NCBI RefSeq assembly: GCF_021155765.1 | Contig: NC_060110.1 | Location: 8,245,501-8,309,500 of the forward strand | DNA: 64,000 nucleotides | Source of the DNA: Diprion similis | Lineage: Eukaryota; Arthropoda; Insecta; Hymenoptera; Diprionidae | Direction: 5' to 3' | In this document: in pieces, positions 25,474-60,176 of the stretch | How positions within the stretch are numbered: position 1 is the stretch's first letter | Layout of the letters: each line of letters starts with the position of its first letter | Program-made: the position numbers and the translations under genes | Notes under the pieces: generated by a model | The model's database searches: none | Seen by the model: the letters and a program-made list of their open reading frames with translations, nothing else | What the model was told of the DNA's origin: nothing

Positions 25474-27382
25474 ATGGGTGACATTAGGGCTGGCCTAGAC
25501 GAGCTAAAACTTGATCCAGCCTTGTTTGCCAACGTCAAATACTACGTTAGCGGTGAAGCAGACCCCAAGGTGAAATAACTCAATATTTATTGCCTCTTTG
25601 AGCACCACCAGCTGTAAACATTCTCTAATATTACGCGCGATAATTTCGATATTTTGCATTTATGAAACTGAATGACGTATCAACAAATCTTCTAAAAGCG
25701 GTTAACCAATCTCACGAATACATTTGAGTTATATTCACGTAATCAGAACATTTGACAGTTGATTTATTTTTGCCTTACTCATGCACACTTGCATGAGCAC
25801 ATTGTAAGGCTTGAAAAAACTAGTTTACATGCTCCTGGTCAAGGTGTTATAAAAATTTGAACTGCAATCGGTAGATCAAAACGAAGCACTGAACCACGTC
25901 GGTTAAGGTGATCCATGAAAATTCTATCAGCAACATTTATCTTCACCGTGTTTTCATTTCAGATATTAAGTTTATTGCAAGAAGGGGGAGCGGAACGATC
26001 TAATTATTTCAGCGACTTTGTAACTCATCTTATCGCAGGCCATGAGGCGCTGGAAAGTGATATCTCTGAAGCTAAGGATCTTTACGAGATTCCAGCTGTT
26101 ACGCAGGACTGGATTCTGTACTCTGTCAAGTGCAAAAAACTACTCCTGTATCCTATTACACTATCCATATTGGATTTATGTCTTTTACCTGATAATATTT
26201 CCAAATTTCAATTGATCTTTGCTTGTTACGTACTTTATCGTAACATTTTTAAATCATATGTTTTTATACAAACTGATCTGTATTACGATGAGTCTTAAAG
26301 TCTGTATATACTTTATCCTTAATGCGTAAATTTCTTAGACCGCAATATTTTTCTCCGGAAGAGAACCAACTATTCTCCAATGTAAGAGCATGTGTCTCCC
26401 AAGTAAGCCGTGCAGACAGCAAATCTGTCTGGGCAATGATAACGCTCCAAGGTGGCAAATGTCAGCTACGTTTAGATCGTCACTGTACGCACCTAGTGAT
26501 TGGTAAGGCTGATGGGGCAAAGTACGAAGCTGCTACAAGACACCGCATTAAAATTGTCACACCAGATTGGGTAACGGACTGTTGTCGAAATAGAAGTCGC
26601 ATTGGTGAAATTGAATATCATCCTAGGCTATTAGTATATCCATCACCAAATAGTTCGACTGCTCTTATTACTGGCTTTATGGATGAAGATTGTGAGCTGA
26701 ATGCGGTTCAACAGGAACAGGATAGAACAAAGGCAATGTTGGAAAAACTGAAACAACGAATGCCTTGGAATCAGCCTAATACATCAGTTACCTCAGCATC
26801 TGCACAAAGTTATAATGCTGTAAGAACTTCTGTACAACAGGTTGGTGTACAAGGGCCCAACACCATTAGCACATCTAACATGCAACAGCAGTTCTCACGG
26901 GCAACAACTCAGAGTAGTTTACCACACGTCACAAATGTCTCGTCGAGTAATATGCCAAATACTTCTACTTCCGCATCTTGGCACCCACAAACATCGCAAA
27001 TGAATAATGTTCAAATGAAAAATATCCTACAACAACAACAACAACAACAACAACAGCAACAGCAGCAGCAACACGAAGCACCACATCCACAAATTAATAT
27101 TCAGCAACAGCAATTGATACATCAACAGCAGCAACAACAGTTATCTCAACAACAGCAACACCTCAGCCATCAACAACAGCAGTTAAATCAGCAACAACAT
27201 TTAGCAGCACAGCAGCAACAGATAAACCAACAACAACACCAACAACAACTAGAACAGCAGCAACTGACTCCACAAAAACAGCAACAAATGGTTCAACATC
27301 AGCTACCATCTCAGGCACAGCAACTATTAACACCACAACACAAACAACAAATAAATCAACATCAGTTAATTTCACAGCAACA

Positions 27383-27426
<44 letters not shown>

Positions 27427-28433
27427 TTGGTCAGCCTAGACAGTTGACTTCACAACACCAATTGGGTTCACAGCAACAACATTTAAACACGCAACAACAA
27501 TTACAATTATCTTCCCAACAACAACAGCTGGCTCTTCAACAGCAACAACAACAATTGGCGCCACCACAACAACAATTAGGTCCGCCACCACCATCGACTC
27601 CACAGCAACAAACACTTACCAACGAACAGCGTCAACAGTTACTTTTGCTGCAGCAACAACAACAGCAACAGCAGAAAATACAACAAATTTCACAACAGCT
27701 TCAACAGTCAGCCCCTCAAAGTACGCAACAATTTGTGATTAGAGACGGACAGCTACAACAGCAAAGTGCAACTCAACAACAATTGATATCACAAAATCAA
27801 CAGGGTCTCATCGTTCAGCGAGATCCTCAATGGCAACAACAACAGTATCATTTACAATTGCAAAGGCAACAGCAACAGCAACAAATTGGCCAACAACAAA
27901 GGCCTGGCGGTCAGTGGGCCCAGCAGCCGCAACATCCTCCGAGACAACTAATACAACTTGATGCGCAAACTCATCAACATTTACAACAAATGGACCCAAC
28001 ACAAAGAGCACAATTTATTCAGAAAATACAGAAACAGCGGAATTTGATACTGCAAAGACAAATGCAAAGTAGACAAGCGCAGCAAGGGCCTCATATAGCA
28101 GTTATAAGGAGTCCTGGAAAACCAGGTCAGCCAGGAGGATTGCAATGGGTTCAGCAACAACACAGAGCTCAGTTAATGGGACCTCAGGTCGGACCAGCTC
28201 CAGGACAAAAACCAATGATCCCGGGAGCTCAGCCTCCGGCACTCACACCAATAAACTCATCAAATCCAGTTATAGTACAAGCAGCCCAATCTGTCTCAGG
28301 TGGCCAAACTACACAACCTGGTCAGGTGTTTCAGCAGGGTCAACCTCTGACACAGCAACAGCTGACTCAGTTGCACGTGCAGAAGCAACAGCAAATAGCA
28401 AGATTGCAACAGCTGCAACATTTACAGCAGCAA

Positions 28434-28471
<38 letters not shown>

Positions 28472-31400
28472 GCAGCAAGGTCCACAGCAAGAACCTACGT
28501 TAACGCCATTGTCAGGAAATTCGCAAATACCACCTGATCAACAGTTGGTTGTCAATGCTAAAACAAAAACGGCGCTTGCCAATATGCTTACAAGTAGACT
28601 GCAAGGCGGTGCTGCTGAAGGTAGCGCCGCTGGTCAACTTCGGTTGATGACTGCTCAACATAGACCACCTCCGCCACCTTCACAGGACCCTCAATTGCTA
28701 GCAGCTTATCAGAGAAGAACACTCGGAAACATTACAAACGGTGCACCGCCAGGTGCACCTGTAAAAATGCCGTATGCAGTCGCTATTCCACCGCCGCGAG
28801 CGCAGTTTTACGGACACAATCCAAACTTGAAATGTATGTACAGTAATTTATTCAAGATCTTTGGAACTACTTTACAGAATCGAAGCAGTTTATACCCTGC
28901 AGATTTTACTAAAATTGTTTCTATGTATGAGTAAAATTAGTTTTAAACCCGACTTCTGAAGCTTGTAATATATTCTTGAAAAGTACGGATAAATTTCTCA
29001 AACTGTGAGTTTTATTCGTAATCAAACTGATCTATAAGAAGTAAATATTAATTTGCTTGGGTAGTGTTCAACTTCACTGAAACCAAAACCAAATTCTATA
29101 TTGTCGATGCCAAATCTAGGAAACTGATACTGTCTCGTATTTCAGTCTTCAGAATTAAAGTAAGCAACGCCCATCTTATTGGAAACTGATGCTTAACATT
29201 TTTTTTTTTTTCAGTGCCTCCAGACTTGTTTCTTCTTGGCTGCATTTTTGTGATTGTTGAATATGATACTCAACAGCCAGACGAGGTCCTAAATTGGAAA
29301 CAAGTAATTGAGCGACACGGGGGAGAAGTTGAAACGCAGTATTGCGCCCGTGTAACTCACATATTAGCCATGACGCAAAAACACCCGATAGTGAATCAAG
29401 CTCTACGAGAAGTTAAGCGCTGTGTCAGTGCACATTGGTTGTCCGACGTTATTGGAAAACAGCAAGTCTTACCACCTTGGCATGCACTGCATTTTCCCAC
29501 CCCATTCGGCTTGCAAGAGTTGCCTTGCACCAAACACATTGTGTCTTACTCTGGATTTGAGGGAGAAGAAAGAGCTAAAGTTAAATTTATGCTAGAAGCA
29601 TTAGGTGCAAAACATACTAGTTACTTCTCTAAACACAATACGCTGCTCGTCTGTAGAAGGTACGTCAACAATGCCTGGTTCATTTTCATGCAGATATTAC
29701 TGTTTTTTCATAACCGTTTGCAAATCTAGTTCAATTATGAGAAATGAACATGGGGTATGATATTCTGGATGGCCTATTCTCAAAAAGAATTATTTCCATT
29801 TATTTAAAAATTCCAGACCCGATGGACCGAAATACAAAAAAGCTAGAGAATGGCAGACTGGAGTAGTTAATGCACAGTGGATGACTGATTTGCTGTGTGG
29901 TCAAACCAGCGCGCTTCATCAACCTGAAGCCACAAAATACCAGCAATTTATCCTGGGCAATCCATTTCGACTGGATTATAACTTAGTGCCTCATCTAATG
30001 GGTATGTATTTGATGTATAAGTGAAGAAAACACCTCATAAATGAAAAACTTTGAGTCCAATGAGTCGCTACTGAATCAAGTATCCTTCACATCAGTCATG
30101 CTAAAAGTGTCATAGTTAATCGTCAGCAGTCATTTACCGAGTACTTTGTAGTTTTTTTTAATTTTCTTATTTATTCGTATGAAAGTATTAATCAACTTCT
30201 GCGGATTAAAAAACAAAAATTTGGACTATGTATTGGGGTTGCATAATTAAAATAAATGACGTTTAAACTTTCTGGGTAGGTGCTTGGAAAATGCCAATCA
30301 ACATAACACAAGAATCTTATGACAAAGTGAAACAAGTTGGTCAAGGTCCTAATGCAATGAGAAAAAACAAGAAGCCTCGATTAGATGGACCGTTACTAAA
30401 TAAAGATCCACATCTTTTGGGCCTTGACGAACAAATAGTTATTAGCAATCCAGACCCACCACCACCTGATAAACAGCCTAGAATACTATTTTCTGGGATA
30501 AATCCTAGAAAATATGCAAAGGTGATGCGTACATCTTGATTAGTTTTTTTATTCTTCTCGACAAATTCATAGATCAAATAATTTAATTAAACTATTCATT
30601 TATGTTTTCCATTAACAGAGAATCCGAGAACTTGGCGGGGCTCTGGCTGTCAATTGGCGTGATGCTACACATCTTGTCATGTCTGCACCATTTCGTACTG
30701 TAAAACTATTATGTTGTCTATCTCATTGTCGGCATATCGTTACGATACAGTGGCTCGTTGATTGCTTTACGAGAAACACGTTTGTAGATGAGAGCCCTTA
30801 TGTACTCGGCAGCCTTGAATTTGAGAAAAATTTCAGCTGCAACATTGAGAAAGCCCTTGCCAGCCCCAACAGAGGAACTGTACTTAAGGTACAATGTGAA
30901 TTTCATAAGTGCTATAAGTTTAGTGATTATATACTCAAAAAATGTATTCACTTTTTCACAATTACTTACTGCTTATTTAATTTTTTCAAAGTGTTCAATT
31001 CATGTTTAGTCTTCCATCCGTCTAATCGACGTTTAAAATGATTCCATTTTTTTTCTTAGCAATATCTCCACTTTCATTTTGCTTTCTGAATCCGAAAAAT
31101 AAATTGACTTGAAATAATAAAGTATGTCTTACTTTCAATACAGGGTAGGATATTTTATGTAACACCTAGTGTTATACCGTCTCCATTGGCATTCGCTGAA
31201 ATAATCGAAAGTGCAGGTGGCACAATAGAAAAGACAAGACGATCTCTTAGCCAAATACAAGAGCTGAATGCGACCAGATTGACTTACATTATTGTGACTC
31301 ATGAAAACGATCTTCATCTTCTTGCCGATGTTTTACATGCTAATATCAGTAAGTATTTTATGTCATCTGTAACACCTAACATGAAAAATTTGCACCCAAT

Positions 31401-43912: not shown

Positions 43913-44917
43913 TTAATTGTCACTAATTGAAACATCTGCACAATCCCTGAATTCTTCCTGCGGACCACAGCCGGCAGCCTCTGTAACGAAAGAATTCTTT
44001 TAGTTTTTATCACTCTCAGAACACTTTTTCTACAGAAAATTGTAACAGTGTGCCTAAGTTGTCATGCTATACACTAATTCCACCTTGTCATAGAAAACAA
44101 GTTGCATAAGCATCTGCGTTCGAAATTCGAATGATATGCCATTTTCAATTTACCAATTCCATCGCCACAATCGCCCCAACTATTTCCGGTTACGTATTTC
44201 CATTGGAGTACACATTGCTCACAGGTCATATTAGCAGGTAGCTTGTAGTTGAGATCGACAAGGCCTGGTCCATATTGCGGGAAATACCAGGACTTCCCAT
44301 CTGCTCCAATTAGAATATTTTGATCCAAACATTCGGCCGTCACTTCGACACCCCGTTGTTTCATCGGGCATAAGCGAAACTCGAAGTATCCTTCATGAAA
44401 CGCTGTTATTTCTACTTTTATCGGAATCATAGTACCAGCACGATATTTCCTCGCTATTACGCCATTGCCGTATTTACCTCCCGTTTCATGTGGCCGAGGC
44501 TGAAAGTATCACACAAGAATTGAACCCTTGGGTGAACACTAACTTGATTTTATGACTTTGTGTGTCGTTGGTAATATATATGCTATATGCATGTGTTGTA
44601 AGGTGCTTCCCAATTTACCTTACTGCTATTCACACCATTATTTTTATGCAGATGAAAACCCTACCTCTCGCAAATTCCACGCATCTCCACATATTCCACA
44701 TTCTCCATTGTTCACGTCCCATTGTAAGCTGTAACCGCCACAATTTCCCTCCTGATCGTCGTCATCACGTGGATTGTCAAACCCATATCTCCACATAGAC
44801 GCTCTGGACGGGGGTTCGACCAGTCTTCCATGTCCCAATACCTCAGAGAGTAAAACATTACCCAATATGAGAAGTTGGAACAGGTAGTAATACATCTTTT
44901 TATTTTTTGGAGAATAC
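43913..44917 (-). CDS. AA15 lytic polysaccharide monooxygenase, copy 1 (secreted)
   Basis: Copper enzyme that oxidatively cleaves chitin or cellulose chains outside the cell. Coding exons: 44895-44665, 44499-44154 and 43980-43913 (214 residues). The ATG exon begins at an acceptor at 44917, so the 5' UTR is split by an intron. The signal peptide MYYYLFQLLILGNVLLSEVL ends at Gly21, leaving mature His1 (HGRLVEPPSRASMWRYG). The second brace histidine is mature His91 (TAFHEGYFEFRLCP), the same number as in the firebrat AA15 enzyme. The end reads AAGCGPQEEFRDCADVSISD, with Phe where the axial copper position is expected. The PRPHETGGKYG and NYKLP...CEQC motifs are present. There is no linker or anchor. 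The residue before the His91 motif is Phe, not the Asn of copies 3 and 4. Exon 1 resembles copy 3, exon 2 resembles copy 2. Function is by family; the substrate is unknown. Confidence 0.93.
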
Positions 44918-45658
44918 CTAAAATAATGAAAGATCAAATTACGTAAGCCGTTACATTTCTTGGTAAGTAAAGCGAGCTATGGAAGTGACCGCCATGCCAA
45001 CTACAAGAAGTTTTCGTCAAAGCGTTTATTCAATCGTTCATCATAGCTTGAAATAGTACGTACAGGTGTCCGATAATGCGATAAGCCAAACCAACACAGT
45101 ACGTAAGTATTTTCTCTAAACGTTACCACACTTTGTTAACCACATTCTACTAGAGATCTTCTAAATGATCATGTTTTCGTAAGGTAGGTACATGAAGTAT
45201 CCGCCGCGTTTCATTCGAAATCTTGGATGGATAACATGAAATATCACACGCGATTAACAGTATAACAAAGAACTATCCCGCACACCATAAGTGATAGTAA
45301 ATGAATGTAGGCAGTAACACTCCCTTGCCAAACTCGCTCAAGGTGTTTTCAGGAAGATCATACAGTATCACTTACTCTACGTCACATTAGATCAGCTACG
45401 TACTCTTCGCGTATTCTCTCGATGTATTAGAATAAGATGCACCACGCTTAGAAGATGTCTTAATTATAAAATCTTTTGGCAATCTTAATCGCCGGATTTG
45501 TGCGTAAAATGTCAGCGAATCGGAGCAAACTCGATGAAACAACCAGTCTCACTCTTGGAAACACTCAAATGCCACCGAGGCTGATCTGTCTCGTTTTATA
45601 TGTACATGGGTAGGGGATCAGGACGAGATGTTTTGCACAGTCGGAATTCATCAGAATA
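44918..45658 (-). other. 5' UTR intron and promoter side of AA15 copy 1
   Basis: The stretch lies between the coding exon acceptor at 44917 and the upstream block at about 45595-45656. It should contain a non-coding first exon and an intron. The segment 45510-45560 is closely similar to 53520-53570 ahead of copy 3, consistent with shared first-exon or core-promoter sequence. Confidence 0.5.
45595..45656 (-). promoter_or_regulatory. Conserved upstream block of AA15 copy 1
   Basis: Homologous to the blocks ahead of copies 2, 3 and 4. On the gene strand it reads, in order, a divergent half-site region (TGATCCCCTACCC), then CATATAAAACGAG, a TATA-box-like sequence. The TAGGTCA present in the other three copies is disrupted here. 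The block ends where the foldback element at 45659 begins. Confidence 0.55.
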
Positions 45659-46792
45659 CAAGGTGTCTTATTTTAAAAAAATCCAGTCAAATATCTCGAA
45701 AACCAAAAGTGTGAATGAAAAATGTTTCAGACAAAAGTTGTATGGTTCGAAGGGGGAAAGGAAATGTGAGTGTCAGATTTTCCTTAAGTGGATCCACCAA
45801 CGTTAGATTAAGGTCAACTTAGTTTTTGTTTTTTTCAATGGAACAGTATATTTTTTCCATCAGCATCTGAAAGAGAATTAAATTCTGCATCAAAAAGTAC
45901 TTGCATACTTACCACTTAAATTCGACTGGTGGATGACATACAAGCCGGTCGAGTTGCTACGGAAAGTTCTCGTCGTACTTGGGTCCTGAGTTTTGCATGC
46001 TAAGCAGGATTCGCAGAGGCGTGCATCTAACAAAGGCCGTGACGTGAACGGTCTCGCTGTGGGCCCCTTTATTTTTTTCTAAATACATATTTACATTTTT
46101 TTGAAGTTTTATCTTTAACTTTCTAGATTAATTAATTTTTTTAATTTACTATTTTAATTTTTCAGTTTAAATTGTTATTAATTCAAATATTTTTAACAGG
46201 ATGATTGTATATTTTATTAGAAACTTTTTGTAAATAAAACGTTATTCGTAAACCGTATTTACGATAGCAAATTACGTACAGTTATAAATCACCGTTGATC
46301 TCTTGTTTGAAATTTTCTAACTTCGAGGCGCGACAAGCATTGATAGTTCGGTGATTTGCTATCGTAAATACGGTAAATACGAATAACATTGAACTGAGAA
46401 ACTAAAAAATTATAAAATTGAAGATGAAACTTGAAAAAAATATAAATAATTATGAAGAAAGGTTTAAATGAGGACACAGCAGAAGCGTCCATGCCAACTT
46501 GACGGGCTCGTATGTCATCACCAGTCGAGTTTAGGTGGTCAGTATGCGAGTACTTTTCCATGTAGAATTTAATTCTCTTTCAGATGCCAATGAAAAAAAT
46601 ATGCTGTTCCATTAAAAAAAATAAAAAGACCAAGTTGACCTTAATCTGTCCTTAGCGGGTCCACTTACGAAAAATCTGACACTCTTGTTTTGTTTCCGTT
46701 TTTGAACCTTACAACTTTCGTCTGAAACATTTTTCACTCACACTTTCGGTTTCCGAGGTATTGGACTGGATTGATTGAAATGACACACCATG
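45659..46792. mobile_element. 1.13-kb foldback element with long inverted arms
   Basis: The two ends are inverted copies: the left arm starts CAAGGTGTCTTATTTT and the right arm, reversed, starts CATGGTGTGTCATTTC. Pairing is strong for about 320 bp per arm (45659-45980 against 46480-46792) and weaker inward. TA flanks both ends (45657-45658 and 46793-46794), as for Tc1/mariner-type insertion. There is no transposase frame, so it is non-autonomous. A nested strong palindrome sits at 46238-46272 and 46349-46388. Confidence 0.75.
46234..46390. repeat. Nested inverted repeat in the centre of the foldback element
   Basis: GTTATTCGTAAACCGTATTT followed by ACGATAGCAAAT at 46240-46272 pairs with its inverted copy at 46349-46388. 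The loop of about 75 bp is itself bounded by AAATCACCG and CGGTGATTT. It lies near the middle of the 45659-46792 element and may be its fold centre or a separate insertion. Confidence 0.65.
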
Positions 46793-47829
46793 TATAACTT
46801 TGTGGCTTTACTGCAAATAATCCCTGTTTCTTTACCAGAAGCGTACGTGTTATTGTAGAATTTCTCTCAGCGCAATCTGAAACCGCCAAAACATCCTGGA
46901 TGCTCGTGGTATGATAAGTTATTCTCACCACTCCTTGTTTGTTTGACTCATAATTTGAATTACTTCGCGTGATCTCACTGAATCGAACAAACATATCAAT
47001 AAAGAAGCGATTTTTATGCTCAACTATAACGTGAACTTACGGTGGTCCAGGTCGCGACTACAGACAAAAAGCAACTACTCACTGAACTTTTAACGAAACC
47101 TGTTGGAACGTTGTACCCACAAGTTTTTGGGCTGCTGGTTGCGATCGCAGAGTCAATGATGCGCATAATCGTATGGTAGATCACATATGGCAAATCTTGA
47201 AAGTAAAATGTCTTCTGATCAGCGGGAAATGTACTTGTATAATATACCTGTAGGTTTTTGGCTGAAATTTCAATATTCAAAATTACAATATATGCACATG
47301 TAATATAGACATGAAAAACTAAAATATGGAAAAAAATATAGAAAATATAAACTACATTTTCTGGCTTCACACATCATACTTTACGTAGGAAACCAATTAA
47401 GGAATCAAAATAGTTTGAATAAATTCAAATTCTTAATAACAATAAGCGGGCGTATATTCATAGCGTAGGGATAAAAATCTATAACGGCATCTATAAAATC
47501 GAAATGTCGAAAAAATCGAAAAGTCAAGAATAAATAGTTTTTATTTCATAAATAAGTGCGTACAGAATATAATTCAGATCAATAATGAGAAAGTGAAAAA
47601 ATGAAATACATATTGTGACTAATGCGGTATTATTATTTCAGAACTATTTAGAGTGGCATTTAACGAAATTTCACCAAAAAACGGTACTACATATCAAGTC
47701 GATTTTCCTCGTAGTACATACATATCAATTGTTATTACTTCTTTCTTGTTTATTGACGAATTGAGTATGATTTGTAATGTGTGTTGTCAATAGTAATACC
47801 ATACATCAATTATCGTATGAATACAACTA

Positions 47830-48077
47830 AGGTAAGTGTACCAGTTATTGAAAGGTTTAGACCCAATTATTGACCCTTTCATTTTCAAAAATTATAAATT
47901 TACGGCACAAATCGTAAATATATCGATGACTAAAACCAATTGCTAGAGAGATAGCGACAATTAGACATTAGAGACAATACAAATTTATTCTTTGGTAATT
48001 TTACAAATAAAGATCACACTGATACAACCAAAATAGGTCAATGATTAGTACAGGGTCAATAACTGGTACACTTACCT
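47830..48077. mobile_element. 248-bp MITE with perfect terminal inverted repeats and TA target duplication
   Basis: The ends are perfect 21-bp inverted repeats beginning AGGTAAGTGTACCAGTTA, flanked by TA on both sides (47828-47829 and 48078-48079). There is no coding capacity. It lies downstream of AA15 copy 2, between that gene's stop codon and the foldback element. Size, TA duplication and perfect ends suggest a fairly young non-autonomous Tc1/mariner-type element. Confidence 0.85.
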
Positions 48078-48296
48078 TAGTGGCGGGTCCTCCAACCAGT
48101 TTTAATGATTTCTTGCGTAAAATAATTTTAAACGACTTTAAGACAAGCAGCAAACGTATCTCAGGGCTTAACAAACTAAAAACTCAATAAGTGCATGTTC
48201 TTTCAGATAATGATAGCTGACAATAAGTATAAGATGTTCTTTGATGTTTTAGTTGGTCCTACGGATGTAAATTGAGTAAAAAGTGACGATTCATTA

Positions 48297-49265
48297 TTAG
48301 TTAGTAATTGAAATATCTGCACAAGCTCTGAATTCTTCCTGCGGACCACAGCCGAGAGCCCCTGTAACGAAAGTATTCTTTTAGTTGTTATCAAACTGAG
48401 AACATTTATCACATAAAAATTTATCGTAGCATGTAAAGCTTGTCATATTATGCATTAGTCTCACTGCATTATTGGAAAACGAATTGCACAAGTCTCCGCG
48501 TTTGAAATTCAAATTTTTAGACACTTCAATTTACCTGTTCCATCGCCACAATCTCCCCAGTTATTTCCGGCTACGTATCTCCATTGGAATACGCATTGCT
48601 CACAGGTCATGCGAGCAGGTAGTTTGTAATTTACCTCAACAAGACCTGGTCCAGATTGCGGGAAATACCTGGTCTTCCCATCTGCCCCAACCAGAATATT
48701 TTGATTCAAACATTCGGCCGTCACTTCGACACCCCGTTGTTTCATGGGACACACGCGAAACTCAAAGTATCCTTTATGGAACGCTGTCATTTCTATTTTT
48801 ATCGGGATCATAGAACCAGCACGATATTTTCTCGCTATTATGCCATTACCGTATTTACCACCCGTTTCATGTGGTCGAGGCTGAAAGTATCACACAAGAA
48901 TTTAACCTTTTCGTGAACACTAAGTTCATTTTATATAGCTTTGTGAATGTGTTTCAAGTTGTACACTAAATCAAGTTACTATTATTTAGATAATTAATTA
49001 CATAAAGTTTGAAAACCTACCCGAGGCAAATTCCACGCATCTCCACATACTCCGCAGTTTCCATCGTTCTTTCCCCACTGAACGCCATAACCGCCACAAT
49101 AGCCTTCCTGGTCATCAGGGTCACTTGGGTTATTAAACCCATACCTCCACATAGACGCTCTTGACGGAGGTTCGATAAGTCTTCCATGCCCCAATACGTC
49201 GGAGAACAAAACACTACCCAGTATGACAAGTTGAAAAGCGAACATATTGCCTTGTTGAAGAACGC
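48297..49265 (-). CDS. AA15 lytic polysaccharide monooxygenase, copy 2 (secreted)
   Basis: Second member of the array. Coding exons: 49245-49021, 48880-48535 and 48361-48297 (211 residues). Intron positions and phases are the same as in copy 1. The ATG exon acceptor is at 49265. The signal peptide (MFAFQLVILGSVLFSDVLG) is two residues shorter than in the other copies; mature His1 starts HGRLIEPPSRASMWRYG. The second histidine is in TAFHKGYFEFRVC. The C-terminus GALGCGPQEEFRACADISIT ends just after the Cys-rich module, with no linker or anchor. It shares the TAFH form and the KQRGVEVTAECL segment with copy 1. Intron sequence beside the exon 2 acceptor is also nearly identical to copy 1. Its upstream block is the closest of the four (TATA about 0.33 kb from the ATG). 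Confidence 0.93.
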
Positions 49266-49570
49266 CTAGAACAATATGCTAGCAGAAATTTATTAACATA
49301 TTTCCATATACGTACAGTTATCACCACTTATATGCACAAAACTCCATATATTTATGATGGAAGATAGAGAGCAGGATTTTAGAATAATTTAATATTCTAT
49401 CAATTCGACTTACAATTGAATTCGATTGCAGTTTTCAGCTCAATCTTTAGTATTATGGGATGGGTTCGATTTCAAGCTATAGTTTCAATAAGGTATGGAA
49501 TATGTAAAACACAAACGAAACGCATCGAACCTGATAAAACAACTATTCTAACTTTTCGGAATCTTTACCG

Positions 49571-49636
49571 TTTTATACTATATAGGGGTAGGTCATTAGA
49601 GCAAGGTGTCTTGCATGATCGTAATTCATCGAGGAC
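49571..49636 (-). promoter_or_regulatory. Conserved upstream block of AA15 copy 2
   Basis: On the + strand it contains TAGGTCATTAG at 49589-49599, a nuclear-receptor-type half-site. It is followed by a GCAAGGTGTCTTGCATGATC segment shared with the other copies. On the gene strand, TGACCTACCCC runs directly into TATATAGTATAAAACGG, a good TATA-box candidate. It lies 0.33 kb upstream of the ATG, across the 5' UTR intron. Confidence 0.65.
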
Positions 49637-51799
49637 ATCACTTTACAGCAATGCACAAAGAAGCTCCAGTTTGTTTACTGGATGTATATGTCAATATACA
49701 CTTACACGCGGAGCAATCTGATTGTGCAACCGCGATACTTCACCGAGTAGGTACTCCAAATAAATATTGGAATTGCCGTAGAGAACTAGTCTTCAAATGA
49801 CCTCACTTGTATCAATGAATTTCGACACTTCTTCTTGCGGAAGCCATGTTTACTAAATTACCACAATTGGTAACACCCTCGTTGGAGGTCACAATGCATG
49901 TGCAGAAGCTTGTTCAGCTGTCCCTTACTCTTAATGCGTTCGGTGGGTGGCACAATTGTGCAAGAACGCCTTGTAATAGTTCCTTCTCTAGTTTACTTCT
50001 TCACACGTTATTTTACTTCAATCCACGATGGGATATCTGCCTAAACTAGATCATAACCATGGAATGTTTAGAGAACTTTATGTTCTCAGGTGAGTGAAGT
50101 TAATTGTTTGAAATTTATGGCCATTACGAATAGACCATTTGTGGCTGCGACCAATATTCCAGGTGCACGTATCATTTTTGTAGCTGATCGTTACAGATCA
50201 GTTCAGAAATTTTTGGAAATCTTAGTGGAAATATTTTTTCAATCTAATCTCATATCTACAATTGTTGAAGCGGCATCAAATTCTTGAACCCATTTATAGA
50301 ATTTCAATGGAATTCTGCACGGAAATTCTTTGAACTCCATGAGGATTCTTCCATTGAATATTGTTACACCATTTTTATATGTTACGAAAGTAAAAGTGAA
50401 ATCAAAGTTGATTGAATACGATTTTATTATGGGAGAAGGTATAATTAATTCTCATAAAAAATTTGTACAGTTACTTAAATGTACGTAATTTCCAATAAGA
50501 AAAAAAATGATTTCAGTTAAATTAATTTGCCACTCTTCCAAGTTCAAATATTAATATCCGAAAAATGTGGGTTTGGTGTATATTCGCCAAGTGGATTAAA
50601 CCGTGTAAAGCTAAGGCACAAATACTCGTTCAATCGTGCGAAACAGACCATAAAAATTGCCAGTCCCGAAACCAAGTGACAGCAATTAAAATGCTAATTA
50701 TAAAGAAACTTATTTTTATATTTTTGTATTAGATTAAATTGATTTGAATACGACACAATGGTGGATCAGATTATTAAAAAATTTGCATCAATTATTGCAA
50801 CCTTCAAGGAAAAAGGTAATAAAAAACGATATATAATAATGTAGGACAGGATTATGAAAGTGTCCAACTCTCAAAACACGTTTGCCACTGATATTTAGTA
50901 GACCAGTGTCCTTTAGTCAGGCAATTTCCTCGTGTCAATTTTACGGTTGATCAACTTCTTATAAAATTGTAAGCATGATTTTTAACAGATAAGTCAAATA
51001 ATAACATATAAATAATGATTTCACACAGTGGAAGCAAAAAAAATCTCTTATATACGGGTTAAAGACTTTCGGTATGTACAATTATGCAAATACATGCATT
51101 ACTTGCAATACCGCAATAGAAGTTCGATAATTTGGATATAAACAACTATATTTTATAAGTATGTAGTTACAGAAAATAGAATACAGAGCATTTATAAAGA
51201 AAACAGAAAAACTGAAAGGTATGTTATGAAGAATCATCATTGCCGTAGTACATGTATAACGTCATGTCGAAATCAACGAACTTGGATGCAAAAAAAAAAA
51301 AAAAAACGCAAACGCCAATGATCGTGACTTTCCTTGTGTAAGTTTCAAGTAATTGTTACTCATTCTTCCTCGCTTGTGACACACTTTTTATTACACTGCG
51401 AGAAGATTTTAGAAACGGAAAATTTCCAGATTATTCTCACGTTTGTTGGTGACGTCCGATAACAATATTGCTACTTTAAACATGCATAAATCTGAAGAAT
51501 TAAATATGATTTACGAAACCCGCAGTAATAATGCTGTCGTTACTGTGCTAATACAGTCATCTGAAGTTGGCACGATATCTCGATATCATTGTTTTTCTCG
51601 CACCAATAGTGCCAAGGCCAACTAATTGTAAAACAATCCGCAAACATATCCCAGAAATAAAGAAACTGGAGAGTCAATAAGAGCATATTGCTCCACGATC
51701 AGACAATTACGGCTTCGCTAGTGATGGATGATTTTCTTTGGTAACAAACTTCTCAGCTCCATATGCAGACATTATTCGTAAGTATATGATCCAGGCCCA
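49637..51799. other. Intergenic region between AA15 copies 2 and 3
   Basis: About 2.2 kb, AT-rich, with only short chance frames and a poly-A run near 51291-51307. No remnant of a further AA15 exon and no clear repeat end is seen. Confidence 0.45.
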
Positions 51800-52854
51800 T
51801 TAAGTGTTACTAATTGTAATATCTGCACAAGCTCTGAATTCTTCCTGTGGACCACAGCCGAGAGCCCCTGCAACAAAAGTACTTTTTAAGTTTTCGTCAA
51901 CCTCAGGGAATTTTTTGTACAGATACTTTGTGTATTGCATATAATTTATAATAATATATAATAATTTATGGAAGAATCGGATGTCAGAGTAATCGCACTA
52001 CGTGTGATCACTTTTATAAAACTGACTTTCAATAAATTAAACCACTAAATTCATTACCAAAAGTGAATTTTTAACAACTCTTAGAGAGAAGTTTTTGTTG
52101 ATGAGAGTAAAATGTCTAAAATTTACCTGTTCCATTGCCACAATCGCCCCAATTATTTCCGGCCACGTATCTCCATTGGAATACGCATTGCTCGCAGGTC
52201 AGATGATCCGGTAGCTTGTAGTTGAGTTTAGCGAATCCTGGTCCAGGCTTAGGGTAATACTTGGCCTCCCCATCTATCCCGATAAGAACATTTTGATTCA
52301 AACATTCCTCCGTCACTTCTACCCCCCGTCGATTCATAGGGCAAACGCGAAACTCAAAGTATCCTTTATGGTTCGCTGTCAATTGCACTGTTACCGGAAC
52401 CATAGAACCGGTCGAATATTTCCTCACCACTATGTCATTGCCATATTTTCCTCCAGTTTCGTGTGGCCGAGGCTGCAAATGTTGCATAGAAATTAGAGAT
52501 TTTAGTGAACGTTCTTCTTCTTGTGAATTTCTGTTTAACATGGTTCTCAATATACCTTAATACTATTTACACCATTATTTCTGTGCAGATAAAAAACCTA
52601 CCTCATGCAAATTCCACGCATCTCCACATACTCCGCATTTTCCCTTGTTCACGCCCCATTGTATGCTATAACCGCCACAATACCCCTGGTTATCGTCGTA
52701 ATCACGTGGATTATCAAACCCGTATCTCCACATAGACGCTCTGGACGGAGGGTCGACCAGTCTTCCATGTCCCAATACCTCGGTGAGTAAAACATTACCC
52801 AGTATGAGAAGTTGGAACAGGTAGTAATACATCTTTTTATTTGTCGAAGGATAC
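51800..52854 (-). CDS. AA15 lytic polysaccharide monooxygenase, copy 3 (secreted)
   Basis: Third member. Coding exons: 52832-52602, 52472-52127 and 51867-51800 (214 residues). The ATG exon acceptor is at 52854, 22 nt before the ATG. The signal peptide differs from copy 1 by one residue (SEVLG to TEVLG). Mature His1 starts HGRLVDPPSRASMWRYG. The second histidine is in TANHKGYFEFRVC, the Asn form shared with copy 4. The C-terminus is GALGCGPQEEFRACADITIS, with no anchor. Exon 2 is clearly more diverged from copies 1 and 2 (NRRGVEVTEECL, YYPKPGPGFAKLNYKLP), while exon 1 is closest to copy 1. All cysteines that recur across the array are kept, so it looks functional. Confidence 0.93.
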
Positions 52855-53602
52855 CTGAAACAATAATTTAGTACATATGTTGAAAGTTTTGATATTATAT
52901 CGGAGGACAAGAATCCCATGAGTTCCCGCGTTGCCGTACAGTAATACTATTCAACACGCCAAATTTCAAATCTCTGATTTCACGCAACGATTTGGTTAGA
53001 TTTTTTAACAGGTTGAAGCACTATTTTAGGTATCCGAATTTATTTTCAATGTGATGATTTATTTGTGACCGATTAACGTTCGGTATACCCATGATACAGT
53101 TGTACGACTAGAAGTAGCCGAAGCTGTAATAAGCTGCTTAAAACAGAATCGCGATTTTACAACATTTCTCGTAATTAGAACATCAAGAATCGAGCCAATG
53201 GATTTCGAATCAATTCAAACGTTGGCTCATAAATTCACATCGTAAATTTGAATTTCGCACATCAAACAAGTCAAATGTTCTTCCAGATTGACAGATTCAT
53301 CCTCTGTAACATTCGTCTGCGAAATTAGTTGAAGGTATTCTAAAGAAGAATGAAACATATCCACTTACCCTATATAACTTCAGATCTATAAATTTCTGTT
53401 GTCAATCTTCAGCTGCCAATTAGAAAGCACCACGCTTTATCAGGGATATCGATTCTCAATTGCCAAAACTCTGAGAGAGGATTCTTAACTATTTCAATTG
53501 CTCGACATATACGCGTAAAACACAAGTGGATCGGAGCAAACTTGATGAAATAACCAGTCTATCTCACCGGGACACTTGGCTGCTACTGCGGTCAATCCGT
53601 CC

Positions 53603-53670
53603 CGTTTTGTATGATGTAGGGGTAGGTCATTAGGACGAGGCGTTTTGCACGATCCTTATTCGTCGAGTGT
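53603..53670 (-). promoter_or_regulatory. Conserved upstream block of AA15 copy 3
   Basis: TAGGTCA lies at 53623-53629 on the + strand, followed by ACGAGGCGTTTTGCACGATC. On the gene strand the half-site is followed by CCCCTACATCATACAAAACGGG, a TATA-like position with a weak match. The sequence downstream on the gene strand (53520-53570, with GACTGGTT and GTTTGCTCCGAT) is shared with copy 1. It lies about 0.8 kb upstream of the ATG. Confidence 0.6.
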
Positions 53671-56185
53671 AACTTTATAACCACATGTATTTCCACATTT
53701 TCATTGTCTCCCGTGATTGTGAATATCTTTTAAACGTCAATGGATGATTACGGAATGTTTTCAATTCGCCATAAAAATGAATACTCACTTGTCAACTTTA
53801 AATTTATGTTTTAATATCACACAGTCTTGTCTTCAATAAACAAACTCGCGTATGTTCCTTTTTATCTTGATTTGTCCTGTTGATTTGTTTTTAAATTTAT
53901 GTACTTGAATTTTTATTTATTGATGTCATTTGAAGCTGTAAACTTTAATAGATTTTATCTATAGTGACGAATAGTTTTTTTTTTCTTTGCACATGTTATG
54001 TACAGAAAATACAATCAAAAACAGGGGACTGGGATTTTCTTAATCTTGTTATATTTATAAATTCTGCTTCATACCGCTACTGACTTATCGTTAGTCACGT
54101 TTTGCAACATATTTTTGTTGGAGGAAGCGTTATTCATACATCTCCGATCTTATCTTATCAGTGGCAAAATGTAAAGAATTATTCGCAGCAAAACGCACAA
54201 AGGCGCACAAAACATCAATCGTTGAAGGCGAGGTTGAAATGCATGTGACACTAATTCGGAAACGGATGTTTTGGTTACGAAATTTTATTGCATCCGGTAT
54301 TGCACCGCTTCTGTCAAGACGGTGAATTCGTAGAAGAACATACAAGGATGCTTACCACTTTTATATGGAACAAGTTAATACCGGAAAAACCGTGCTCTGC
54401 ACTGAGAAATATCTCAACATCCGAGAAAATGGCCTGACCTATAAAAAAGGACTTTCCTCATCAGTCTGCGTATGTAAAATAAACCGGAAGACAGAGATGA
54501 AAATGGGAATTACATTTATCAAGCTCATAATATGGGGAGTAAGATTTTTTCATACAACCGACGTTTATCTGACCGAGCTAAATATGGTGAAACGAGTGTT
54601 TTCCCCAATTGAAGAAAATGTTATCTGGTTGAAAAAAAGCAGTAATTTACGTTGACAAGTGTAACGCCATTCACTTTATTCGACTGATGAATACTTCAGG
54701 CAAACGATGATTTTGATTAAATATATTCGGCAATTTCAAGGAATGTTTTCTATGCCTATGTATATGATAATGAAAGATGTCCAATCTTTCAATCACTTAC
54801 GCTTGAAAAGCACGTCGTCCCTTTGCTGAAAATTTTAACCATAAAGAATTATTCTATCACGAAGCATTATTCGTTGTAAGACTGAAATTTACTCCGCATA
54901 ATTCACTGGCCATTTATTACCTTTATCCTGTAATCAAATTGAGTTTATTGTAAATATCAAACTATTATATGTAAGAAAGAGTGAAGTCATTGTTTTTATT
55001 CAAATCACTTTTTTATATAACCCTTACAATAAAATTTTCAACATTTTAAATCAATTAAATAATAAACATATGTCGGTAATACTTCATTCATACTTTAAAG
55101 TAGGAGTATAATCCATGCACTCTTCAGATTCGGTTAAAAGTAACTTAATATTATAAGGAATTGCTAGGTGGTAAGAGTACGTAAACTTTGATTGACGTAG
55201 TCCAGTCGCGTAAAACAATTTCTTCCCAGAAACTTATTAGTCACATGTGTCTAGACATTTTTGAAATAATTTGCATCGCCGTAATAAGGCAAGTATTCGT
55301 AGGTTAATACTTTTGGGGTAATTTGCATGCTTCGAAGCTCATGCCAATAATTTTTACACGTTAGAAAATAAATAATTTTACTTGACAAATATTCATACAT
55401 TGTATATACAGGATCTAGCATAACAATACAGAGAAATTATAAAGTGAAAAAAACCAATGAAAATCAGTCGATTTAAGATTATTGTTACATCACGCGTTAG
55501 TCATAATTAAGGCTTATTTAACACATAAAGAAAACTCCTGCGAATTGTAATTTTATAACAACCAAAATTAGCTTCTTCGCGATGTTGGATATTTTTTTCT
55601 ATCTCTTGCTAAGCGGATGCTCTCGTTCACCTATATATCTTCAAATATCGAGATCCACGTACCTCAAATGCGAAAAAGGGCTTCACAGCCCCATTCCATG
55701 CGCAATTCTGAACAAAGGCATTCGAATAGATTTTCATTCGATGTAGAAATCAAGAAATGGCACGGATTTTACGAAATCGTAATAGTAAACTCGTAGAATT
55801 CGTGCCAATTCTATATTTCTGCCTCAAATGAAAAAATGTTCAAATATTTTAGTTCAGAATTGCGATGAGAATGGGGCTGTTAAGCCCTTCTCGCATTTGA
55901 GTTACGAGGACTTCGATATCTGGAGATATACGTATACGACAAAGTCGAAATCGAACATGGCACCCCCTTAACTTGAAGGTGTTTTTAGAGATCGAAAAAC
56001 TATTCGCGAGCACATCATTCAGTTGCTTCTTAAACCCGGATTACAACAGAATCATATGCCATACGTACATAACAAGTTTCTCCTCAGACAGGAGCTTTTG
56101 TCTAAATCTCACACCGATTTCTATAACAGTGCAGATATAAAATAACAATTCCACACTAATTCGTATACATATGTCTTATCGCGAA
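53671..56185. other. Intergenic region between AA15 copies 3 and 4
   Basis: About 2.5 kb. It contains the truncated TTAA-type MITE at 55632-55971 and otherwise AT-rich sequence. Short open frames such as 54365-54655 show no family signature. Confidence 0.5.
55632..55971. mobile_element. Palindromic TTAA-type MITE, left end missing
   Basis: Diverged second copy of the element at 63161-63532: TATATATCTTCAAATATCGA, CACAGCCCCATTCCATGCGC, a central inverted half, and a right end reading GCACCCCCTTAA. The terminal ~45 bp of the left arm, including its TTAA, are absent or unrecognisable. It is non-coding. Confidence 0.75.
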
Positions 56186-58163
56186 TTAAGCATCCAGAGG
56201 CAAGTGTGAAATCGAATTTTGATGTTTCCTCTGTCTCGGCGGTGCAACCGGTGCTGTATTGTCAGGTGTTAATAACTTTCCAGCCCTTAACCACTGCTTG
56301 GCTTTTCCGGCGTGATAATAGTACGCGTACAACAACGCAAACGCAGCTAATATAACCAGCAACGACGTCCCTGCAATGACCAAACTGACCAGCCAGTAAG
56401 GTCCTGATATATCAGACACCAGAGAAGGCTCTGTAGGCAATGTAGGTTGAGCGTGTTTCGTAGTCGAAGTTCCACCCGTTGCATTTGTCTTTGGTATAAT
56501 TGGTCGTGGAGGTAGCGCAGCTTGATTGTCGCCGATTGAAATATCCGCACAAGCTCTGAATTCCTCTTGTGGACCACAGCCGACAGCCTCTGTAACGAAA
56601 ATCCACGTGTTACATGCTATGATTGCATATTTGTACAGTAATTTTCATCAACAGGTACATACTCAGTGGCTCGCTGTTTTTTTCGAATAAAAACTCGAAC
56701 AAGTTTCCTTTCTAATCAAATTTAACGTGCCAGTGACTAGCGGCAGAAGAGAAAGAAACGATACGTTGGTCATAGACTCGTCAAATTTCTATCTAAAGAA
56801 AGCTCGTTTCATTTTCGATTCTAAAAAATAAGAGAGTCACTGGGAACCTGTAAATGAACCTTACCGTACAAAAATGAGTCAGCTTCAAATATCGCTGACC
56901 ACATTTATATACTTCATATCTGTATTTGCCTCTCGTTTTCTTTGTAAGACTGTTTATTATTCTTGCCGAATGATACTCGATGAAGTTATGCAAGACCATT
57001 TACCAACCCTTCGGTCAGTTATGGTAGTACAATACGATGATTACGCAACGTTATAGTCTGAGGAGGCATCGAATGATATAATTAATACCGCTTTCTACAC
57101 ATCGATTAACGTCAGTAAAGAGGTCAAATTTAGTTCAATAATGAAACGGGATCTCAGTTACTAAAGTGCAGCCAAAATCTCAAGAAAAACATGAAATATT
57201 CTATAGCCATGAATTCTGATTGTATCACTCTATTCTTCTCATAAATAGATCGTAAGGATTGTTGGAATTCTCGACTTTTTTATATCCCACGCTCACTCGT
57301 GATACGGCTTGAGAAAACGTTTATTGACAATTTAAAATCACCTGTTCCGTTATCGCATTTTCCCCAGTTATTTCCTGCCACATATCTCCATTGGAAAACG
57401 CATTGAGAACACGTCACGTCTTCTGGAAGTTTGTAGTGACTTTCAAAGATTTTATTTCCAGGACCAGGGTAGTATCTAGGTGTTCCACTTTCTTCGATAA
57501 GAACATGCTGGTCCAGGCACTCGGCCGTCACTTCGGTGCCTGGGTGTGCCATAGGGCATAAACGGAACTCAAAGTATCCATGGTGGTTTGCCGTCAGTTC
57601 CACTTGTACCGGGATCACGGAACCTGTACGGTATTTTCGTACTATTATACTGTTGCCGTATTTCCCACCAGTTTCATGTGGTCGAGGCTGCAATTATCGT
57701 AAATGGATTAGTGAACGATACCATCTGCCAAATTACTTTGTAATCATCATATTCCTTTTATTAATTGAATAAATAGAGTCGTAAAATTTTTAACAAAAAT
57801 CAAATTCCAACTTCAAACGTGCCCCGTTTTGTTGAAAGAAAATAAAAACATGCGGATAACATATCCACTCAACTCTCGATAAGCACTTTTCGACGTAGTG
57901 ATTTTCATACCGTTTTCACATCCCACGGATCTCCGCATATTCCGCATTTTCCTTGATTACGATTCCACTGTCGGCTGAACCCACCGCAGTACAACTCGTG
58001 GTCATTGTAATTGTGTGGCGTGTTAAATCCGTATCTCCACATAGAGGCTCTGGACGGAGGTTCGATCAGTCTTCCATGTCCCAGGACATCGGAAAAAAAG
58101 AGGTTCCCGAATATAACGAGGCGAAAAGCCACTTGATACATATTTTTAACCGTTCGAGTGTAC
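56186..58163 (-). CDS. AA15 lytic polysaccharide monooxygenase, copy 4 (membrane-anchored)
   Basis: Most upstream and longest member. Coding exons: 58141-57911, 57687-57342 and 56589-56186 (326 residues). The ATG exon acceptor is at 58163. The signal peptide MYQVAFRLVIFGNLFFSDVL precedes mature His1 (HGRLIEPPSRASMWRYG). The second histidine is in TANHHGYFEFRLC. After AVGCGPQEEFRACADISIG the last exon continues instead of stopping. It has a Pro/Thr-rich linker (PPRPIIPKTNATGGTSTTK), a single transmembrane helix (YWLVSLVIAGTSLLVILAAF) and a cytosolic tail ending SISHLPLDA. The enzyme should therefore be held at the outer cell face. Exon 1 ends WDVKT rather than WNLxE. It is the most diverged copy and could be the ancestral form from which shorter, secreted copies arose by loss of the tail. 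Confidence 0.94.
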
Positions 58164-60107
58164 CTGGAACAATCCGAAGGATAGTACGTTATTAGTTAGT
58201 GCATCAGAGTTACTGCAATGCAATTTTCGCAATACACATGTCATGCAAGCATTGGAGCGCATCTTATAATTTATGAGAAATCGTTTGCATGTAAAATGAT
58301 GCTATATAGATGGGGTGTTTATTAACCAATACGAATTTTATTGCAATATATCGGGGGTATATAATTACAACTATAACGATAACGATCTTGTTCTTGGTCC
58401 AGGCGGCGTGTATAGTAATCACTATATTTATTGAAGCAATGAGACAATAATTGTTCTCACGATCAGGATTCATGTTCTACATCGACAAGTAAAATACCTT
58501 ATTGAGGAGAAAGGTATATTGACCGTAAATTATTGCTTTCAAATTTAGAAGAAGAAAAAAAAAATTACAATTTCAACTTCCGCTAGTCACCGTACCGGAA
58601 GAAGTCAATTAGAAAGGTGCGGGAGAGATTGAATTTAGACTGTCACATAGTTATAACAATAAAGAGACTGCAGAAGGAACCTCATTAATTTTCTCCGAGA
58701 AAATGATTGTTACAGCTGTAGCAAATTAAACATTCCCGTTGAAATATTGCGGCTTTCATAATATAATGCGTGTATAAATGGTACTTGATTAAACGTCACG
58801 AAAAATTTTATTGAATAATTGCTGCCGTGTAAAAACTAAGTAAATTATCCCTACAAGTGCCCTGAGAGTTGAAGCCTACAAACCTGTATAACAGTATCTA
58901 ATTTTAATTTGACTCCAAGCGTCGCTTCTCGACTCGTGTTTTATGGCCATTAACCGTTTTTCGTAATCCTGCATGTTTATGGTTAGTAGTAACGGTCTGA
59001 ACGCTGGACGGTCAAGTTTAATGTCATCTCGTGAGAAATCGAGCCGTGTATCCAAATCACAGAATTTAAATTCCGATATTTCAAGCCCGAATTTTTTTAT
59101 GACTGGCAATTTGCTAAATTTCTCGATCCATTTCATCCACGAAAGTGGTTGTAATACACATTGGTATAAAAAACAAGGAGCAGGGTAAAAGTAGGTATTT
59201 ATGTCCACATCACTTATGCAGTGGTGCAGCACGGAATAACAAATTACATGAAATTTCTCCGCTGTATGCAATGAGCCAAAGTTTAACGACACGTGAATGT
59301 TTCGTAAAATCCGAGTAGTATGTCTATTGTGTATATATATACTATAAATTGTCGGTTAAAATTCAATAAATGAGTTCTTGTAATATAAACAGATTCTCAC
59401 GTGACATACGAAGCTGTCTAATTCCAATTGTAGATTAATTATAGAACTGTTTTTAAAAAGCTTGATGATAATCCGATCACATGCTCGCGTGTATTAACAA
59501 TCTAAAATAGCGTTCTGAGAAAACCTCGTCGGTTATAATTATTATAGTCAGTTACCAAACATGGCCTCATGTTCAATAAACTGTGTAAATTAACCTCGCT
59601 GCGAGAGTGTTTAGACAGAGTTACTTTCATTCGAAGACAAAAAGTGTTTTATTGAACGGTGAGCCGATTTCGGCGGAGGGTATACTCGTCGCATAAATTT
59701 GAATATTGAATGCAAAATAGGTTGAACAGTTTGCCGAGTGCATACACGAATCCCTACAACTCCAGAATTTGTGTGTTAAATACTGTTGTCTTATTTGTAA
59801 AAAGAAACTGTGCGGTGAACCCGGCAGTTTCACCTTTACCGATTTCTCTTGTAAGTATTTGGTTCATGTTTTAAGTGGGAATTGCAGATGATAAAAAATA
59901 ATGTACATATATATGTAGGACAAGGTCTAAATATCCAAAATAAATACGCACCAAATTTTGTACATGCAAACTCTTGAGTCTTGACTCGTTACTAATTAAT
60001 CCTCAACTAAACTTCTTGCGCAGGATAAAGTACAAGCCAATCGTAACAAAGCCGACTTAACAACTAACCCAGCCTTCGGGAACGCTTGGCCACTACTGAA
60101 CTCAGGT
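58164..60107 (-). other. Probable 5' UTR intron of AA15 copy 4
   Basis: About 1.9 kb between the ATG-exon acceptor at 58163 and the upstream block near 60108. It is AT-rich with no other supported gene. If the promoter assignment is right, this is the longest 5' intron in the array. Confidence 0.4.
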
Positions 60108-60176
60108 TTACCACTCTTGTATGTAGGAGTAGGTCATTAGAACGAGGCGTTTGTCCGCGATCGTGATGCATCGGGT
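60108..60176 (-). promoter_or_regulatory. Conserved upstream block of AA15 copy 4
   Basis: TAGGTCATTAG lies at 60130-60140 on the + strand, followed by AACGAGGCGTTTGTCCGCGA and a TGATGCATCGGG tail, clearly homologous to the other blocks. The TATA position on the gene strand (CCTACATACAAGAGTGG) is degenerate. It lies about 2 kb upstream of the ATG. Confidence 0.5.

Follow-up and report, generated by a model that had tools for sequence, protein, structure and literature searches.

Why does a block of about 60 bp recur upstream of each of four tandem AA15 genes in the hymenopteran Diprion similis, and what would it do there? The window analysed here, 64,000 nucleotides at C6:8245501-8309500 (NC_060110.1) in a genome of 269 Mb and 60 contigs, carries these four genes, named A to D and all on the minus strand. 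A first-pass annotation had read the block as a shared promoter element with a TAGGTCA half-site for the ecdysone-cascade receptors HR3, E75, or FTZ-F1, by which chitin oxidation would be timed to the moult. The feature is ordinary paralogous promoter conservation in a tandem AA15 array; specifically, comparison of the copies indicates that a single ancestral AA15 gene probably had the block as its proximal promoter and passed it on to the four tandem copies, all of which have kept it.

A homologous block confined to the AA15 cluster

Alignment places a homologous block of about 60 bp upstream of each minus-strand AA15 gene, exactly where the first-pass annotation had located it: at 45595-45656 for A, 49571-49636 for B, 53603-53670 for C, and 60108-60176 for D, on the gene strand in the position of a proximal promoter. 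The distance from the block edge to the ATG is 700, 326, 771, and 1967 bp for A, B, C, and D, respectively, in agreement with the reported spread of about 0.33-2 kb, and the ACGAGG-like and TTGCACGATC-like segments, followed by a TATA-like sequence, are present as described. The 5' non-coding regions, each some 1.9-3.4 kb long, were aligned locally pair by pair, with 60 dinucleotide shuffles per pair as the null. In five of the six gene pairs the best-aligning stretch is the block, which scores 41-87 where the shuffles reach at most 33-36; for A and D its homology is seen only through the multiple alignment. The similarity of the blocks is real and beyond chance. The proposed extent of about 60 bp holds for all four copies and is incomplete for three of them, since the copies of A, B, and C remain homologous past the TATA: between A and C it covers 137 bp (E 1e-17) and extends beyond the TATA into the presumed first exon, and between B and C it runs for a further 47 bp (E 0.001). 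On the minus strand, these downstream stretches occupy 45501-45593 in A, the presumed start of non-coding exon 1, 49501-49570 in B, and 53512-53604 in C.

The block is restricted to the cluster genes in this genome, at the sensitivity of a blastn tool that skips very common words and scores the best candidates. With this tool, none of the four copies has a match outside the cluster in the 269 Mb, and copy D recovers copy D alone, so distant copies could be missed. The exact core 12-mer has 13 sites in the genome, three of them in the cluster, against 22 for a reversed control, and for a longer pattern with up to three mismatches the top three places are copies B, C, and D, with a total of 147 against 319 for the reversed control. 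The blastn result and the 12-mer and pattern counts speak against a genome-wide repeat unrelated to AA15, one of two outcomes that the first-pass annotation had named as fatal to its own reading. A sequence-only model, R1, was also built from the four copies, which it finds by construction; it has no fifth match in the window, in two neighbouring stretches, or at the locus of another AA15 gene on C13, no match at seven loci (five surrounding 12-mer sites elsewhere and two at the same C13 gene), and none around the AA15 genes of C7 and C13. The idea that the block marks all AA15 genes was rejected, because it is absent from the stretches examined around the AA15 genes of C13 and C7.

Organization of the probable promoter and of the 5' untranslated region

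A shared promoter ending in a TATA box, as the annotation had proposed, is supported at the sequence level by the homologous block, by TATAAAA in A and B, and by a splice acceptor in the 5' untranslated region (5'UTR) before every ATG. In homologous columns on the minus strand, TATAAAA lies at 45594-45600 in A and at 49571-49577 in B, the TATA-like TACAAAA at 53605-53611 in C, and the weak TATA-like TACAAGA at 60115-60121 in D. A T-rich tract followed by AG stands 20-22 nt before the ATG in all four genes, with the acceptors on the minus strand at 44918-44919 in A, 52855-52856 in C, and 58164-58165 in D (22 nt each), and at 49266-49267 in B (20 nt). The distance from the acceptor to the aligned coding sequence differs by 8 nt between A and B (hand count), and, because of this difference in length, the leader between the two would be untranslated. 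Between block and acceptor, an 80-bp piece alignable between A and C has a score of 32, where the best of 100 shuffles reached 27. It includes a GTAAGT common to both genes, a motif expected 0.07 times per 250 bases; the other five pairs do not rise above shuffles in this stretch. These motifs are the candidate exon-1 donors of A (45374-45375, minus strand) and, aligned with it, of C (53367-53368, minus strand), and a tentative GTAAGT donor of B lies at 49412-49413 on the same strand, while D has no GTAAGT within 600 bp of the TATA. A GTGAGA near the TATA was set aside as the exon-1 donor and kept as an alternative only, given that the exon would be shorter than 20 nt and conservation runs past it. 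Donors were scored with a position weight matrix, and the TATA and initiator were judged by consensus sequence. The acceptors and the donor shared by A and C therefore make a non-coding first exon followed by a 5'UTR intron the best account of this region.

Read along the gene strand, an upstream element of about 40 bp (GATCGTGCAAAACGCCTCGTCCTAATGACCTAC-like) would lead into the TATA box, and we infer a transcription start presumably about 30 bp past it, in a non-coding first exon; splicing would connect this exon with the acceptor in front of the ATG across a 5'UTR intron whose length varies from gene to gene. The differing block-to-ATG distances would then reflect intron length, not promoter mobility; the spread of 0.33-2 kb fits a 5'UTR intron of differing length. 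Some activator of genes A to D, whose identity is not readable from the sequence, presumably binds the upstream element. Gene A has diverged: the half-site is missing from its core, and a repeat element adjoins the edge of its block. TATA promoters with a non-coding first exon are a general kind in tandem insect duplicates. The AA15 array resembles them in its homologous proximal element and TATA, its probable 5'UTR intron, the acceptor just before the ATG, and the variable spacing; it differs in that the upstream element is found in the cluster only and the TATA is weak in two copies. Promoter and first-exon models are thereby supplied for four insect AA15 genes, and the part of the literature covered by our search yielded no description of an AA15 promoter.

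The presumed 5' intron of D also contains a 159-codon open frame on the gene strand (58876-59355), whose 159-aa product gave neither a Pfam family up to E 1 nor a relative of solved structure up to E 10; the rest of the genome offered matches at E 2.2 and 2.4 only. An open frame as long arose in two of 60 shuffles, and the frame is probably due to chance.

Conservation against neutral sites

The common part of the four blocks was compared with fourfold sites of the coding sequences by one-sided Fisher tests. In all pairs with D, the block is the better kept, with identities of 0.83 against 0.60 for C-D (p 0.003), 0.73 against 0.50 for B-D (p 0.007), and 0.65 against 0.47 for A-D (p 0.04), and these pairs support selection on the block. 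The two coding-region introns of D align with those of the other genes at an identity of 0.46-0.58 only, whereas those of A, B, and C are partly alignable among themselves (0.56-0.72).

Several results weigh against the inherited-promoter reading. Among the three other genes, the block is not significantly better kept than the fourfold sites, with identities of 0.68 against 0.79 for A-B (p 0.96), 0.69 against 0.78 for A-C (p 0.91), and 0.78 against 0.70 for B-C (p 0.22), and recent common descent or gene conversion alone could explain these three pairs. The six gene pairs are, moreover, not independent of one another, and pairwise alignment did not find the homology of the A and D blocks (score 27, null mean 26.5). 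At the level of the promoter itself, two of the four copies have TATAAAA, C and D having only weaker TATA-like sequences, the identity of D beyond the TATA is weak (0.49-0.59), and the exon-1 donor is uncertain in B and D, with another donor-like site nearer the TATA.

Over the region 44895-60176, the outlier in the block is A and the closest pair C-D, while the outlier in the coding sequence is D. This mismatch may possibly stem from gene conversion in the gene bodies or from faster change of the A promoter.

The half-site and its putative receptors

The TAGGTCA reported ahead of all four genes is borne out in B, C, and D, where the core reads exactly GTAGGTCATTAG (49588-49599 in plus-strand reading, 53622-53633, and 60129-60140, respectively), and fails in A, which reads GTAGGGGATCAG at 45610-45621; the portion of the core common to all four copies is GTAGGnnATnAG only. 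With D the outlier in coding sequence and yet the same core in B, C, and D, loss in A is the simpler history, and the half-site was probably ancestral. A chance TAGGTCA in one 62-bp block would be expected in fewer than one case in 100, but the motif was chosen after the block had been seen, and across the window TAGGTCA occurs seven times against 6.0 expected and RGGTCA 37 times against 38.3 expected.

The suggested motif scan, carried out with consensus patterns, gave no exact match to a ROR response element (RORE) or an FTZ-F1 site in any block. Specifically, WAWNTRGGTCA, presumably the RORE consensus, matches exactly once in the window, at 48030, outside the blocks. The core also holds TCATTAG, which we take to be a homeodomain-like sequence, and for this reason the binding factor cannot be named. 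In PMC10712084, an A/T-rich 5' flank is described as raising the affinity of the REV-ERB/ROR half-site. The copies B, C, and D resemble such a monomer site of HR3 and E75 in that AGGTCA is preceded by T; they differ from it in that the A/T-rich 5' extension is absent, the five bases ahead of AGGTCA being GGGGT in B and C and GGAGT in D, and A has no half-site at all. The canonical Ftz-f1 motif, given as YCAAGGYCR in PMC7239656, has one exact match in the window, at 51612, and none in a block. It has the AGGTCA end in common with the core, while three of its nine positions differ, TAGGTCA being preceded by GG in B and C and by AG in D. With no full RORE or FTZ-F1 site in the blocks, a half-site at chance frequency, and none in A, the proposed binding of HR3, E75, or FTZ-F1 is not supported; a hormone-receptor reading, which has nothing in its favour beyond the half-site in three copies, is very improbable.

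AA15 groups and the proposed link to moulting

Insect AA15 proteins have been grouped in PMC9156745 into group I, which has two C-terminal 6-Cys repeats and takes part in the turnover of cuticle during moulting, group II, with a membrane span and a Tribolium gene expressed in the carcass, and group III, catalytic-only, with all seven Tribolium genes expressed in the midgut; for Drosophila, one tracheal and one midgut AA15 are reported in PMC5823890. A genome search with the PF03067 profile found five loci, four in the cluster and one on C13, and a protein search added a sixth on C7 that the profile had missed, in weak pieces (E 0.003-0.1). The frames of the C7 gene (C7:2472001-2482000, about 7800-9640 therein, minus strand) encode AA15 exons and both 6-Cys repeats, while a pattern search found no unsplit 6-Cys repeats in the cluster or in the C13 stretch. 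The C7 gene thus resembles group I in its Cys repeats, A, B, C, and the C13 gene are catalytic-only as in group III, and D, with its hydrophobic tail, is like group II. These likenesses are of architecture alone, and D is far nearer to A-C (0.63-0.66 identity) than to the C13 gene (0.34). With A-C like group III and D like group II, the four cluster genes need not share a single tissue, and D need not be a gut gene.

By architecture, the moulting-type gene of this genome is likely the C7 gene, at which the R1 search found no block. The moult-timed chitin oxidation attributed to the block is not supported, the group I-type gene being a separate one without it, and moult control should be sought first at C7. 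As a side observation, the C13 gene (C13:119001-129000, 3980-5632 therein, minus strand), a catalytic-only AA15 without the block, has TATAAAAGG about 195 bp upstream of its ATG (by eye).

Weighing the alternatives

The likeliest alternative to the inherited promoter is shared ancestry only, in which recent tandem duplication or gene conversion left the blocks alike with no selection on them. It would account for the partly alignable introns of A, B, and C, for their blocks being not significantly better kept than fourfold sites, and for a coding outlier (D) that differs from the block outlier (A), as gene-body conversion could cause; the excess of the block over fourfold sites in all three D pairs and the failure of D introns and flanks to align make it rather unlikely. 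A more ambitious proposal, which we judge unlikely, is that GTAGGTCATTAG and the upstream segments form a cluster-private cis-module, read by a nuclear receptor or a homeodomain protein, that co-regulates B, C, and D. The module would probably act in an epithelium lined with chitin, for instance the midgut, and A would have escaped it through half-site loss and insertion of a repeat at the edge of the module. If this were true, the escape of A would be a natural promoter-rewiring experiment inside one tandem array.

The block might also be a transcribed 5'UTR element, with the start upstream of it and a short upstream open reading frame beginning ATGACCTAC in B, C, and D. ATG ACC TAC is common to these three on the gene strand, C carries a TATAAAG (53673-53679) close to the upstream edge of the block, and the C-D gap in the stretch of the upstream frame is 3 nt. 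However, D has not kept the upstream TATA-like sequence, the hand-read frame is conserved in neither length nor end and lacks its ATG in A, and the downstream TATA is the better one, exact in A and B, so that this account appears distinctly improbable. Binding of HR3/E75 or FTZ-F1 to TAGGTCA, timing AA15 expression to the moult, can draw on columns identical in B, C, and D, on a half-site that is probably ancestral given the divergence of D in coding sequence, and on PMC9555685, in which FTZ-F1 can act on moth midgut gene promoters; the absent half-site in A, its chance frequency in the window, the lack of an exact RORE or FTZ-F1 site in any block, the choice of the motif after the fact, and a moulting-type C7 gene without the block render it very improbable. 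A genome-wide repeat unrelated to AA15 has next to no probability: nothing was found in favour of it for the block itself, although a real repeat adjoins block A, while blastn with the four copies matches the cluster only, the 12-mer is rarer than its reversed control, and R1 has no match at the two other AA15 loci. The inherited proximal promoter thus remains the preferred reading.

The repeat element at gene A

An inverted-repeat element resembling a miniature inverted-repeat transposable element, with TA at both borders, occupies 45657-46796 and adjoins the upstream edge of block A; its arms lie at 45672-45970 and 46481-46780, and its first 176 bases have 45 matching places genome-wide, two of which are its own arms. 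When the flanks are joined across the element, the A-B alignment score goes from 41 to no more than 45, the A-C scores being not comparable owing to the shorter stretch. The 24 bases with which the right flank begins give 11 matches against C, a value equalled or exceeded in 3746 of 5000 random window draws. These results give no support to a block A that continues beyond the element, and no such continuation is claimed; the element either interrupted the promoter or merely sits beside the block. Should expression vary among the copies of the array, gene A, with its repeat insertion and without the half-site, would offer a ready test of the role of the block. Each arm also carries AAGGTCA (45810-45816 and 46636-46642), which differs from the Ftz-f1 motif at one position.

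The AA15 genes and neighbouring features

Rebuilt from their exons, the four AA15-type genes encode 214, 211, 214, and 326 residues for A, B, C, and D. On the minus strand, gene A spans 43913-44895 (exons 44895-44665, 44499-44154, 43980-43913), gene B 48297-49245 (49245-49021, 48880-48535, 48361-48297), gene C 51800-52832 (52832-52602, 52472-52127, 51867-51800), and gene D 56186-58141 (58141-57911, 57687-57342, 56589-56186). The start of C is set at its second in-frame ATG (52832), the first (52919) lying upstream of the splice acceptor. The LPMO_10 profile PF03067 is matched by all four genes in the genome profile search and, at the protein level, also by the whole of gene A and by exon 2 of D; gene A, the only one searched in this way, matches the solved AA15 of Thermobia domestica (TdAA15A, 5MSZ) at E 1.7e-57. 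All four have HG directly after a hydrophobic leader, that is, His directly after the signal peptide. Proteins A, B, and C end soon after the catalytic domain and are catalytic-domain-only, while D has a hydrophobic, membrane-span-like C-terminal stretch (judged by eye) and is the coding-sequence outlier, with amino-acid identities of 0.63-0.66 and fourfold identities of 0.47-0.60 to A-C. The C-terminal hydrophobic tail may have been lost in A-C or gained in D. The stop of A (SISDN, then stop; 43913-43980) falls at the point where D reads on (SIGDNQ; 56186-56589), and A is nearest to B by amino acids and to C by synonymous divergence (dS).

In the cluster and C13 stretches, the 6-Cys pattern matches only runs of cysteine on the strand opposite a glutamine-rich frame at 28 kb. 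An 880-codon open frame at 26292-28934 is very rich in glutamine.

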